The notes under the pieces were generated by a model, which saw only the letters and a program-made list of their open reading frames with translations, made no database searches and was not told the origin of the DNA. The position numbers and the translations under genes are program-made. 64,000 bases of DNA from Bacteroidales bacterium (GTDB lineage Bacteria; Bacteroidota; Bacteroidia; Bacteroidales; UBA932): assembly GCA_017938925.1 (NCBI GenBank), contig JAGBAO010000009.1:1-64000 (forward strand), given 5' to 3'. This document shows positions 45,701 through 50,569 of the stretch, one piece after another (the stretch's first letter is position 1; every line of letters begins with the position of its first letter).

Positions 45701-45731
45701 CAAAGGTAAGAAAAACTTTTATTATTAGCAA
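45701..45731 (-). promoter_or_regulatory. Promoter of YceD-rpmF-tRNA-Arg
   Basis: Minus-strand TACCTTTG (45708-45701) and TTG (45731-45729) with a 20-bp spacer; it overlaps the end of typA. Leader about 24 nt. Confidence 0.6.
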
Positions 45732-47530
45732 TTTATATCTGAACTTTTTCTTTTGCGCTCTATCTCGTTCAGGATAATCTTTCTCAGCCTCATGGACTTC
45801 GGTGTCACCTCCACAAGCTCGTCCTCCTGGATGTACTCCAGCGCTTCTTCAAGGGAGAATACCACCGGCGGCGGAAGCATGACCTTGTCGTCGCTTCCGG
45901 AAGCACGCATGTTGGTGAGCTTCTTGGTCTTGCAGATATTGATGTTCAGATCCCTCTCACGCGTGTGCTCTCCCACTACCTGACCTTCATAGATCTCTAC
46001 TCCCGGCTCGATGAAGAACCGGCCGCGGTCCTGAAGCTTGTCCATTGAATACGCCACCGACAGACCGGTTTCAAGAGACACCAGCGAACCGTTTGTACGG
46101 CGCTCGATGTCGCCCTTGTAAGGTTCATAGCCCTTAAGACGGTGTGCCACTACAGCCTCGCCCTGGGTTGCGGTGAGCAGGTTGCTCCTGAGTCCCATGA
46201 GTCCGCGTGACGGGATATCGAATTCGAGATGGGTCCTGTCTCCCCTTCCCTCCATCTGGATGAGGGCACCCTTGCGGCGGGTCACCATCTCGATGGCTCT
46301 TCCCACGAACTCCTCAGGAAGGTCTATGGTGAGATTCTCTATAGGTTCGCAGCGCTGTCCTCCGATCACCTTGTCCAGCACCTTAGGCTGTCCCACCTGG
46401 AGCTCGAAGCCCTCGCGACGCATGGTCTCGATGAGGACAGAAAGATGGAGCACGCCTCGGCCATAGACTATGAAGGAGTCCGCATTCGGACCCGGCTTGA
46501 CGCGAAGAGCAAGGTTCTTCTCAAGTTCCTTCTCAAGACGCTCCTTGAGGTGACGCGAGGTCACGAACTTGCCTTCCTTGCCGAAGAAAGGAGAGTTGTT
46601 GATGCAGAAGAGCATGCTCATTGTTGGTTCGTCCACCTCTATAGGAGGAAGAGCCTCAGGATTCTCGAAATCAGCTATCGTATCTCCGATCTCAAAGCCC
46701 TCAAGACCCACCACAGCACAGATGTCTCCGCACTGCACCTGGTCCACCTTGGACTTTCCGAGTCCGTCAAAGACCATGAGTTCCTTGATCTTCTGCTTCT
46801 GCTGTATGTCATACCTCTTGCAGAGGGTTATGTTCATTCCTGCCTGGAGGGTTCCTCGCGTTACTCTTCCCACTGCGATACGTCCCACATACGGAGAATA
46901 TTCAAGCGACGAAATCAGCATCTGAGGGGTTCCGTCCACCATTTCCGGAGACGGGATGACCTCAAGGATGGTATCCAGCAGAGCGGTGATGTCATTGGCC
47001 GGCTGCTTCCAGTCGTGAGACATCCATCCCTGCTTTGCACTACCGTAAACCGTGCGGAAATCAAGCTGATCCTCAGTAGCTCCGAGGGCGAACATAAGGT
47101 CGAACACCTCTTCCTGCACCTCATCCGGGCGACAGTTGAGCTTATCAACCTTGTTTATCACAAGCACCGGCTTCTTGCCCATCTCGATGGCCTTCTGGAG
47201 AACGAACCTTGTCTGAGGCATACAGCCCTCGAAGGCATCCACGAGAAGGATCACTCCGTCCGCCATGTTCAGCACTCGCTCCACCTCACCTCCGAAGTCG
47301 CTATGGCCAGGCGTGTCGATGACATTTATCTTTACACCTTTATATATTACGGACACATTCTTGGCAAGAATGGTGATACCCCTTTCCCTTTCAAGGTCGT
47401 TGTTGTCCAGGATCAGCTCTCCCAGCTTCTCCTGCTCGCGCTGCTGACGCGCCTGATATATCATCCTGTCCACAAGCGTCGTCTTGCCGTGGTCCACATG
47501 AGCGATGATAGCAATGTTCCTTATATCCAT
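45725..47530 (-). CDS. typA: Ribosome-associated GTPase TypA/BipA
   Basis: 601 residues. G1 [10 protein letters not shown] (about 10-19), switch [28 protein letters not shown]-like domains III and V, and the BipA-specific C-terminal domain. Acts on the ribosome, mainly in large-subunit assembly and stress. Divergent from guaA. Confidence 0.97.
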
Positions 47531-47735: not shown

Positions 47736-47813
47736 ATAGTTTCATATTCATGCACATCGTGGAAAGAAGGGATGAGTTATTTTATGTTGAGCCAAATTAT
47801 AATATTAGAAAAT

Positions 47814-49121
47814 ATGAAACAGGACATGATTGTAATTCTGGATCTCGGAAGTCACGAGAACACAGTGGTTGCCAGAGCCATCCGTGCGCTGGGAGTTTAC
47901 AGCGAAATCTATCCGCATGACATTACGGCTGCGGAACTGAAGGCACTTCCTAATGTAAAGGGAATAATCATCAACGGAGGTCCCAACAATGTGATTGACG
48001 GAGTTGCAATCGACGTTCTTCCGGAAATCTACGAGGCCGGATATCCTGTGATGGCGGCAGGTCATGACAAGGCACTATGCGAAGTGAAGCTTCCTCAGTT
48101 TGCAAATGACGAAGAGGCCATCAAGGAGGCTGTGAAGCCTTTCGTATTCGACACATGCAAGGCGGAGGCGAACTGGAACATGAAGAACTTCGTGGCTGAC
48201 CAGGTGGAGCTCGTGCGCAGGCAGGTGGGAGACCGCAAGGTGCTTCTCGCACTCTCAGGCGGCGTGGACAGCTCGGTGGTTGCAGCGCTCCTGCTCAAGG
48301 CCATCGGAGACAACCTCGTGTGCGTGCATGTGAACCACGGACTCATGAGAAAGGGCGAGAGCGAGAATGTTGTGGAGGTGTTCCGCAACCAGCTCTGCGC
48401 AAACCTTATATATGTAGATGCAACAGACCGTTTCCTCGGCCTTCTCGAAGGAGTTGCAGATCCTGAGCAGAAGAGAAAGATCATCGGTGGAGAGTTCATC
48501 CGCGTGTTCGAGGAGGAGGCGCGCAAGCTCGACGGAATCGACTTCCTCGGCCAGGGAACAATCTACCCTGACATCGTGGAGAGCGGCACCAAGACAGCCA
48601 AGATGGTGAAGTCTCACCACAATGTGGGCGGTCTTCCAGAGGATCTCAAGTTCGAGCTCGTCGAGCCGCTCAAGCAGCTCTTCAAGGACGAGGTCCGTGC
48701 ATGCGGAGTGGAACTCGGACTTCCATATGAAATGGTGTACCGCCAGCCGTTCCCGGGACCGGGTCTCGGAGTACGCTGCCTCGGAGCCATCACCCGCGAC
48801 CGTCTTGAGGCGCTTCGTGAGGCTGACGCTATCCTCCGCGAGGAGTTCGCAAAGGCAGGTCTTGACAAGAAGGTATGGCAGTACTTCACAGTGGTTCCGG
48901 ACTTCAAGTCTGTGGGAGTGCGCAACAACGCCCGTTCATACGACTGGCCGGTGATCATCCGTGCCGTGAACACCATCGACGCGATGACAGCCAGCATCGA
49001 GCAGATCGACTGGCCTATTCTGATGAAGATCACAGACAGGATCCTTGCAGAGGTTCCAGGCGTGAACCGCGTCTGCTACGACCTCTCACCGAAGCCGTCT
49101 GCTACCATCGAGTGGGAATAG
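47814..49121 (+). CDS. guaA: GMP synthase with truncated, catalytically dead glutaminase domain
   Basis: 435 residues from ATG 47814; usual GuaA is about 510-525. The ATP-pyrophosphatase domain is intact: P-loop LSGGVDSS (147-154), HVNHGLMRKGE, GQGTIYPD, and the C-terminal dimerisation domain PFPGPGLGVR through SATIEWE. The N-terminal class I glutaminase is reduced to ~120 residues: it begins normally (VILDLGSHENTVVARAIRALG, GIIINGGPNN) but the nucleophile elbow GxCxG is replaced by MAAGHDKAL (80-88), and the region with catalytic His and Glu is missing, rejoining at PFVFDTCKAEANWNMKNF. It would need free ammonia or a separate glutaminase. Longer starts upstream are unlikely. Confidence 0.92.
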   Translation: MKQDMIVILDLGSHENTVVARAIRALGVYSEIYPHDITAAELKALPNVKGIIINGGPNNVIDGVAIDVLPEIYEAGYPVMAAGHDKALCEVKLPQFANDEEAIKEAVKPFVFDTCKAEANWNMKNFVADQVELVRRQVGDRKVLLALSGGVDSSVVAALLLKAIGDNLVCVHVNHGLMRKGESENVVEVFRNQLCANLIYVDATDRFLGLLEGVADPEQKRKIIGGEFIRVFEEEARKLDGIDFLGQGTIYPDIVESGTKTAKMVKSHHNVGGLPEDLKFELVEPLKQLFKDEVRACGVELGLPYEMVYRQPFPGPGLGVRCLGAITRDRLEALREADAILREEFAKAGLDKKVWQYFTVVPDFKSVGVRNNARSYDWPVIIRAVNTIDAMTASIEQIDWPILMKITDRILAEVPGVNRVCYDLSPKPSATIEWE

Positions 49122-49180: not shown

Positions 49181-49221
49181 AAACAATAAACCGGCCGCAA
49201 ATCACGGCTGGTTTATTGTTT
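49181..49221. terminator. Bidirectional terminator between guaA and the hexomutase gene
   Basis: 17-19 bp stem AAACAATAAACCGGCCG / CGGCTGGTTTATTGTTT with a 7-nt loop. The right arm reaches into the stop codon of the convergent gene. Confidence 0.9.
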
Positions 49222-50569
49222 ATTTATACTGTTCTATGATCTCGCGGACCTTGGCGACCTTCTCGTCGAGGAGCTGCTTTGAGGTGGCCTCGCAGAGGAA
49301 GCGCAGATAAGGTTCGGTGTTGGAAGGACGGATGTTGAACCACCAGTCAGGGAATTCCACACGGTAGCCGTCGAAGTCCATATAGGCAGTCGCCTTTTCC
49401 TGAGCCATAAAATAGTCACGCACGGCGTCCATCGCCTCCTTCTTGCGGTCCAGCTTGAAGTTGATCTCTCCGGAGTTCTGATATTTCTCGATGCGGCAGA
49501 TGAGCTGGCTGAGAGAAATGCCCCGGGCCTTCATCTTCGCCACCACGTTCAGGATGAGGATGGCTGCGAGGAGTCCGCTGTCGGAGTAGAAGAAGTCACG
49601 GAAGTAATAGTGGCCGGCGAGTTCGCCTCCGAAGACTCCGTCAAGCTCGCGGAGCTTCAGGGCCGCATAAGCACGTCCCACACGCCAGGTGTTCATCACT
49701 CCACCCATAGGAGCGAGGTACTCTCCCACTGCCTTCGAACTTCTGATGTCCTGATGGATATATCCCTTCTCTCCCCTCTCCTCAAGGAAATAATGTCCGA
49801 GCACGGCGATCATCAGGTCGGGCGAAATGAATCGGCTGTTCTCGTCCACGAACATGACGCGGTCCGCATCACCATCGAAGATCACACCTATATCGGCCTT
49901 TACCTGAGCCACGAGTTTCTTCAGATCTTCGACATTCTCCTGAACCAGAGGGTTAGGCTCATGGTTAGGGAAACGTCCGTCCATATCGTCGTAGATATAT
50001 GCAGGCTGGTCGCCGAAGATATCACGGACAAAGAGTGAGGCCATGCCGTTGGACACATCCATTGCGATCTTCAGTCCCGACCAGTCTTCCTTATATTTAA
50101 GAAGGAAATCCAGATAGTCCTTGCGGATCTGAGGCATCTGATGCACCTGACCCCTGACAGCAGCAGGAGTGCACTGGCGGCCCTCATCGATCCAGTCGCG
50201 GATCTGTCCCAGTCCTGTGTCCAGACCCACCGGAAGGGCATTCTCACGGGACACCTTCATTCCGTTGTACTGCGCAGGATTGTGCGATGCCGTGATCTGC
50301 ACAGAAGCCTTGAATCCGTAAAACGCCGTTCCGAAATACACCATCGGAGTGGTGCACAGGCCTGCGTCATATACGTCGGCACCGGCATCGGTGATTCCCT
50401 TCAGAAGATATTCATGAATCTCTGGGGAAGAGACCCTTGCATCCCTTCCGACCAGTACCTTGTCGGCAGAAAGAAGTTCAGGCAGGAAATAGCCCACCTT
50501 GTAGGCCACGTCCTTGTCGAAATCCACATTGTAGATTCCTCTGATGTCGTAAGCGTGAAATGCTCCCAT
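49220..50569 (-). CDS. Phosphomannomutase/phosphoglucomutase
   Basis: 449 residues. Alpha-D-phosphohexomutase family: catalytic-serine loop ITASHNPAQYNGMK, metal site FDGDADRVMF, sugar-binding GGELAGHYYF, phosphate-binding RPSNTEPYLR. The enzyme moves phosphate between C6 and C1 of mannose or glucose; ManB/AlgC-type is likely. Two bases after def. Confidence 0.93.
   Translation of the reverse strand: MGAFHAYDIRGIYNVDFDKDVAYKVGYFLPELLSADKVLVGRDARVSSPEIHEYLLKGITDAGADVYDAGLCTTPMVYFGTAFYGFKASVQITASHNPAQYNGMKVSRENALPVGLDTGLGQIRDWIDEGRQCTPAAVRGQVHQMPQIRKDYLDFLLKYKEDWSGLKIAMDVSNGMASLFVRDIFGDQPAYIYDDMDGRFPNHEPNPLVQENVEDLKKLVAQVKADIGVIFDGDADRVMFVDENSRFISPDLMIAVLGHYFLEERGEKGYIHQDIRSSKAVGEYLAPMGGVMNTWRVGRAYAALKLRELDGVFGGELAGHYYFRDFFYSDSGLLAAILILNVVAKMKARGISLSQLICRIEKYQNSGEINFKLDRKKEAMDAVRDYFMAQEKATAYMDFDGYRVEFPDWWFNIRPSNTEPYLRFLCEATSKQLLDEKVAKVREIIEQYK

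Follow-up and report, generated by a model that had tools for sequence, protein, structure and literature searches.

According to PMC10526850, the glutaminase of GuaA works with a Cys-His-Glu triad, and its helix a1 forms the interface to helices a11 and a12. The ATP pyrophosphatase (ATPPase) part is described there as functioning independently of the glutaminase and as being able to use external ammonia; the lid, DxxES, KD(D/E)V(K/R) and C-terminal motifs are needed for its function. All studied GMP synthetases covered by that article prefer glutamine, and the Km for ammonium is high, up to 174 mM (PMC10526850). For Bacteroides thetaiotaomicron, PMC4380924 reports that mutants of BT_4265, a GMP synthase, are underrepresented.

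The window, a stretch of 64,000 nucleotides from a Bacteroidales contig, carries a guaA gene with only half a glutaminase. The gene (47814..49121, + strand) is an intact ORF which begins with the ATG at 47814 and codes for 435 aa plus the stop. An alternative in-frame ATG at 47772 would lead to a product of 449 aa; sequence comparison makes the ATG at 47814 the preferred start, as the initial MKQDM is conserved there in 92 of 95 copies. The ATP pyrophosphatase and dimerisation part is complete (residues 124-435; 48183..49118, + strand). It gives a full match to TIGR00884 (guaA_Cterm; 457 bits, cut-off 338.75) and includes the GMP synthase C-terminal domain PF00958 at full length (residues 343-434; 48840..49115, + strand; 127.9 bits, cut-off 27). 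SGGVDS, DIVES, VKSHHN, KDEVR and the C-terminal loop are all present; the lid motif IK(T/S)HHN opens with V, not I, in the window protein, and the dimerisation domain has its XMP loop.

Of the class I glutaminase fold, the first half has been kept (residues 1-85; 47814..48068, + strand). TIGR00888 (guaA_Nterm) is matched at model positions 1-74 of 188 alone, with 50 bits (cut-off 172.15). When the window protein is aligned to E. coli GuaA (1gpm), its residues 5-84 correspond to 9-87 and residues 94-435 to 182-525. The stretch after 87 to about 181 is missing, and the window protein is shorter by about 90 residues. At the deletion site (about residues 84-94; 48063..48095, + strand) the halves are joined by a short new segment. 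The linker and the helix preceding the synthetase (residues 86-123; 48069..48182, + strand) are the least conserved part of the protein. By the triad residue numbers of E. coli GuaA, the position of the catalytic Cys is occupied by G83, within AAGH, and the stretch bearing the catalytic His and Glu is deleted. The window protein thus has no class I glutaminase with a Cys-His-Glu triad.

We scanned for motifs in 95 loci of this half form, a few of which duplicate others in the set. SGGVDS, the lid KSHHN, DxxES, KD(D/E)V(K/R) and the C-terminal loop occur in all 95 copies (88 distinct), and PFPGPGLGVR in 94. Neither the GxC(Y/F)G elbow nor the FHPE motif was found in any of the 95. The half-domain has near-constant segments of its own, MKQDM (92 of 95) and AGHxxAxC (93 of 95). 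The a1 interface motif (K/R)(K/R)xRE is absent from all 95 copies, although helix a1 lies in the kept half; the corresponding segment is RA(I/V)R(A/S)-like in 93 copies and AREIR in the two Bacillota-type ones.

Fifteen aligned copies show no length difference and have common deletion boundaries, and 69% of the columns are invariant in residues 1-85, compared to 75% in the synthetase. Among 17 sequences, pN/pS is 0.095 for residues 1-85, 0.164 for the linker and 0.109 for the synthetase. Purifying selection acts on the kept half-domain as strongly as on the synthetase, and since half of the fold has been kept in this way, this GuaA is a conserved kind of protein and has not simply lost a domain. 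A decaying pseudogene is ruled out by pN/pS and by the equal length of the copies, an assembly artefact by the presence of the half form in independent assemblies, including isolates. The first-pass annotation had already read the gene as having lost its glutaminase active site while retaining intact synthetase and dimerisation domains, and had argued that it is no fresh pseudogene; these points hold. What it had missed is that strong selection maintains half of the fold, and that the form reaches as far as a Bacillota-labelled contig.

In an AlphaFold2 model of the window protein (pLDDT 87, pTM 0.86), the block means for residues 1-90 lie at 77-95, and b1-a1-b2-a2-b3-a-b4 is formed. The best PDB matches of the model are full GMP synthetases (7sbc, TMq 0.82), compared to a TMq of 0.60-0.64 for archaeal synthetase-only chains, and thus the half-domain aligns too; rows of full-length GuaA were part of the AlphaFold2 input alignment and may bias the model towards this pose.

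The half form was found in 7 of 101 genomes of a genus sample, in 9 of 149 of a family sample and, among the matches listed, in 5 of 198 of an order sample, with the window's own genome counted in each. When repeats are removed, these are 19 genomes. No GuaA match at the thresholds used was obtained for 12, 13 and 8 genomes of the three samples, respectively (for the order sample, among the matches listed). A scan of named contigs with the first 122 residues gave at least 562 related stretches, a count which, with the truncated part as the query, is silent on how often a full GuaA occupies the locus. The best 80 of these at least 562 were inspected and have the same deletion boundaries. Seventy-three are complete and stop-ended, with 435-436 aa (the match to one of them begins at its third residue); the other 7 are cut by the end of their contig. 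Three isolates, Bacteroides fluxus, B. clarus and B. cutis, are among the best 80, and 59 of the 80 titles name the cecum, colon or rectum of goat, sheep, deer, cattle, water buffalo or yak. The same truncated enzyme is conserved in many gut Bacteroidales.

When plasmid-labelled records were searched by tblastn, all 435 positions were matched in B. finegoldii and in Parabacteroides distasonis (89% each) as well as on a 215-kb contig labelled Subdoligranulum variabile (Bacillota; 75%). The half form of that contig has 429 aa and is preceded by a full GuaA of 513-525 aa. Taking the label itself as given, this contig is probably chromosomal, because elongation factor genes are found on it. Two contigs from viral collections hold 429-aa copies, one of which is 99-100% identical to that of the S. 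variabile-labelled contig, and on one of the two an integrase adjoins. A phage origin was considered and rejected: of 12 and 27 pattern-matching viral-contig stretches, the same two contigs alone carry the half form. Among phage records, 17 match the window protein, none of them at 60% identity or more. A literature search, mainly of titles and abstracts and with subscription journals largely outside its reach, yielded no description of a glutaminase-less bacterial GMP synthase or of the Bacteroides gene pair discussed below. The half form is a real, conserved GMP synthase variant for which we found no published description.

The window gene is flanked by a divergently oriented TypA-like GTPase gene (45725..47530, - strand) and a convergent phosphomannomutase-like gene (49220..50569, - strand), both names being putative. 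Across the 95 loci, the TypA-like neighbour is common to 34 and the phosphomannomutase-like neighbour to 21. A TypA-like match at locus L324 is a tet(W) gene and was left out of the 34. Integrase genes occur downstream of guaA in several records, at L320 (2106-3179), L324 (10413-11489, with tet(W) beyond it) and L329 (2147-3023); the 3' end of guaA may serve as an integration site. No RNA element scoring near its gathering score was found upstream of the window gene. At 10 of the 95 loci, all labelled Alistipes or Rikenellaceae, guaB is located upstream on the same strand, with gaps of 34, 81 and 507 nt in the three cases measured. The product of guaB makes XMP.

The window gene is the sole GuaA found in its own assembly (2.67 Mb in 34 contigs, 91.9% complete), a case which the first-pass annotation had considered. 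Two further weak GuaA matches (E 0.02 and 0.15) cover the P-loop region alone. Besides the window gene there is no TIGR00888 match in this assembly and no PF00117 match above cut-off; a weaker PF00117 match of 14.1 bits lies within a 1259-codon frame. As the genome is 91.9% complete, a partner or a second guaA could sit in the missing part. The half form is the sole GuaA match in 14 of the 19 sampled genomes (13 of 18 besides the window's own), at the thresholds used and among the matches listed. Of the other five, G007 and G055 owe their extra GuaA matches to fragments of the same type, and G333, G348 and G418 have a full GuaA beside the half form. Among 10 genomes of named records, 6 have the half form alone, with G254 appearing to repeat G185, and 4 also have a full GuaA.

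A separate glutaminase was searched for in 44 genomes with TIGR00888 (19 half-form genomes, 8 and 13 with the two synthetase-only forms described below, and 4 full-GuaA controls). No match above cut-off was obtained in any of the 40 genomes without a full GuaA. All 4 full-GuaA genomes passed, and all 14 named control genomes, archaea included, were matched. Weaker matches in the scanned genomes have frame lengths mostly of other amidotransferases. The suggestion that the window protein might belong to a split GuaA of the archaeal type is thus not supported, either by its own genome or by the 40. The half-domain might instead be an adaptor that recruits an ammonia-producing enzyme from outside the GuaA glutaminase family, which would amount to a new split amidotransferase. 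The strong selection on the half-domain, with MKQDM and AGHxxAxC near-constant, would fit this, as would the several genomes that encode a full GuaA directly in front. However, no partner candidate turned up, the window's own genome has no other PF00117 protein above cut-off, and related synthetase-only forms without any half-domain are also the sole GuaA found in some genomes. We consider such an adaptor unlikely.

A full gene in the same orientation immediately precedes the half form in B. fluxus, B. clarus, B. cutis, P. distasonis, G333, G348, G418 and the S. variabile-labelled contig; in G249 the two genes are on different contigs. Between Bacteroidales lineages that have the two genes, identity is 0.91-0.94 for the truncated copy and 0.71-0.77 for the full copy. 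When compared with the Bacillota-labelled contig, the values are 0.75-0.77 for the truncated and 0.50-0.54 for the full copy. In close Bacteroides pairs both are alike (0.94-0.96 truncated, 0.92-0.95 full). A truncated copy that regulates the full GuaA or forms mixed dimers with it, genomes with a sole copy being derived losses that live on the truncated copy or on guanine salvage, would be consistent with the tandem order, seen both in Bacteroidales and on the Bacillota-labelled contig (38-148 nt between the two genes in five measured pairs), and with the truncated copy being usually the more conserved of the two. Against this, the half form is alone in those 14 of 19 sampled genomes, where selection and the active-site motifs are kept too, and the reverse case exists in G348 with P. 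distasonis, where the full copy is the more conserved one (0.97 compared to 0.94). Such a regulator is quite improbable. A second copy with another role, which the first-pass annotation had also raised, fits the relatives with a tandem copy but not the window genome.

A tree built from 141 synthetase domains groups the half form (32 rows, SH-aLRT 96) with a synthetase-only form of about 327 aa (38 rows, 89); their common branch (99) is separate from normal Bacteroidales GuaA. A second tree of 76 rows, with other phyla added, has the half form and the 327-aa form as one long-stemmed clade (100/100), which is sister to Latilactobacillus GuaA (100/98). Both half forms of the Bacillota type group with the 327-aa form (100/99), and this suggests that the glutaminase may have been lost in the order full, half, none. 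Another synthetase-only form, mostly of 319 aa, is a single group (99/87) that sits on the side of the Bacteroidales GuaA. From this position, the glutaminase was lost at least twice, with synthetase-only forms arising from the half-form lineage and, separately, from normal Bacteroidales GuaA. The synthetase-only forms occur in the window's family and order (about 327 aa: L263-L269, L283; mostly 319 aa: L271-L282), and several of their loci adjoin a guaB-like gene. Two genomes of the window's family have a GuaA (L053, which sits in a 551-codon open frame, and L054) that groups with Bacillota, apart from normal Bacteroidales GuaA. The outgroup is not one clade, some branches are long and Bacillota rows are few, so that donor and direction are tentative. 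A recent transfer into the window species was rejected, the third codon positions of the gene being just 0.32-0.64 identical to those of 16 other copies. The tree tentatively suggests an older transfer from a Bacillota-like source.

The long-stemmed clade of its own (100/100), together with the coexistence with a full GuaA in several genomes, might also be taken to indicate a neofunctionalised pyrophosphatase which aminates or activates a substrate other than XMP. The XMP-loop and lid motifs are nevertheless kept in 94-95 of 95 copies, guaB is found upstream at the 10 loci mentioned, and the half form is the sole GuaA in many genomes. We regard a change of substrate as highly improbable.

We consider it likely that the window protein is a GMP synthase which depends on ammonia and in which the remaining half of the glutaminase serves as a docking or structural module, and an ammonia-only enzyme, one of the options raised in the first-pass annotation, is the likeliest reading. 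The intact pyrophosphatase domain would activate XMP with ATP, and cytosolic NH3 would then attack the adenyl-XMP to form GMP, so that the use of glutamine would be given up. The kept half carries helix a1, the helix that packs on lid helices a11 and a12 in ordinary GMP synthetases; the half-domain probably still docks on these helices in a non-catalytic, structural role. The loss of (K/R)(K/R)xRE in a1 weakens the docking idea, and a passive lid would not require segments as constant as MKQDM and AGHxxAxC. Ammonia as the donor has to be weighed against the preference for glutamine and the high ammonium Km of the enzymes described in PMC10526850.

The nucleotide enzymes of the same genomes show a related pattern. 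CTP synthase (PF06418) was surveyed in the window's own genome and 64 relatives, picked by GuaA form, which was assigned from the match range and the length of the open frame. Of the 26 genomes with a full GuaA, 24 have it and 2 lack it; of the 39 genomes without one, 12 have it (one match being a fragment) and 27 lack it. For genomes with a known completeness of at least 90%, it is present in 20 of 22 and 6 of 15, respectively (Fisher p = 6e-7 for all and 0.002 for this subset, kinship being ignored). The window's own genome has no match to CTP synthase (PF06418) or CarA (PF00988), and CTP synthase is also missing from a 99% complete genome without a full GuaA. Nucleotide enzymes that use glutamine may have been lost more broadly, or the pattern may reflect shared ancestry and incomplete assemblies. 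It is possible, though rather doubtful, that the half form stands for a new, widespread class of GMP synthases in gut anaerobes, with the half glutaminase as a non-catalytic module, an ammonia-delivery adaptor or a regulator, within a wider retreat from glutamine in nucleotide synthesis.

If the ammonia-dependent reading is correct, many gut Bacteroidales would depend directly on free ammonia for an essential step in making purines, and GMP synthesis in these organisms should resist glutamine-analogue inhibitors. The series of full, half and no glutaminase represents domain loss in steps, at least twice, and with natural half-domain enzymes the role of a glutaminase half in the synthetase cycle becomes measurable. 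In RefSeq, the half forms of P. distasonis (WP_022191716.1) and B. finegoldii (WP_055279793.1) are named 'glutamine-hydrolyzing GMP synthase'. To judge from their sequences this name does not fit, and metabolic models that trust it would assign the wrong nitrogen donor.

Compared to known systems, the half form resembles the two-domain bacterial GuaA (EC 6.3.5.2; 1gpm, 7sbc) in its complete synthetase and dimerisation parts, in motifs and in fold. It differs in having half a glutaminase without the triad, in being about 90 residues shorter, and in its separate clade, which it shares with synthetase-only forms. With the archaeal two-subunit GMP synthetase (6jp9, 2dpl; glutaminase 1wl8) it has in common a synthetase whose chain carries no working glutaminase, but half a glutaminase is attached in the half form and a separate GuaA-type glutaminase was found in none of the 40 genomes. 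The synthetase-only GuaA of about 327 and mostly 319 aa are equally devoid of the glutaminase active site, and no GuaA-type glutaminase was found elsewhere in the 21 genomes tested (8 and 13). They lack the half-domain; the 327-aa form is in one clade with the window protein, and the 319-aa form is placed on the side of normal Bacteroidales GuaA. Ammonia-dependent NAD synthetase (NadE) differs from the half form in its substrate and family and is not known to have a half-domain. In the ammonia-dependent reading the two are nevertheless alike, as NadE belongs to a PP-loop synthetase family which, according to PMC3376133, has both glutamine-using and ammonia-using members.
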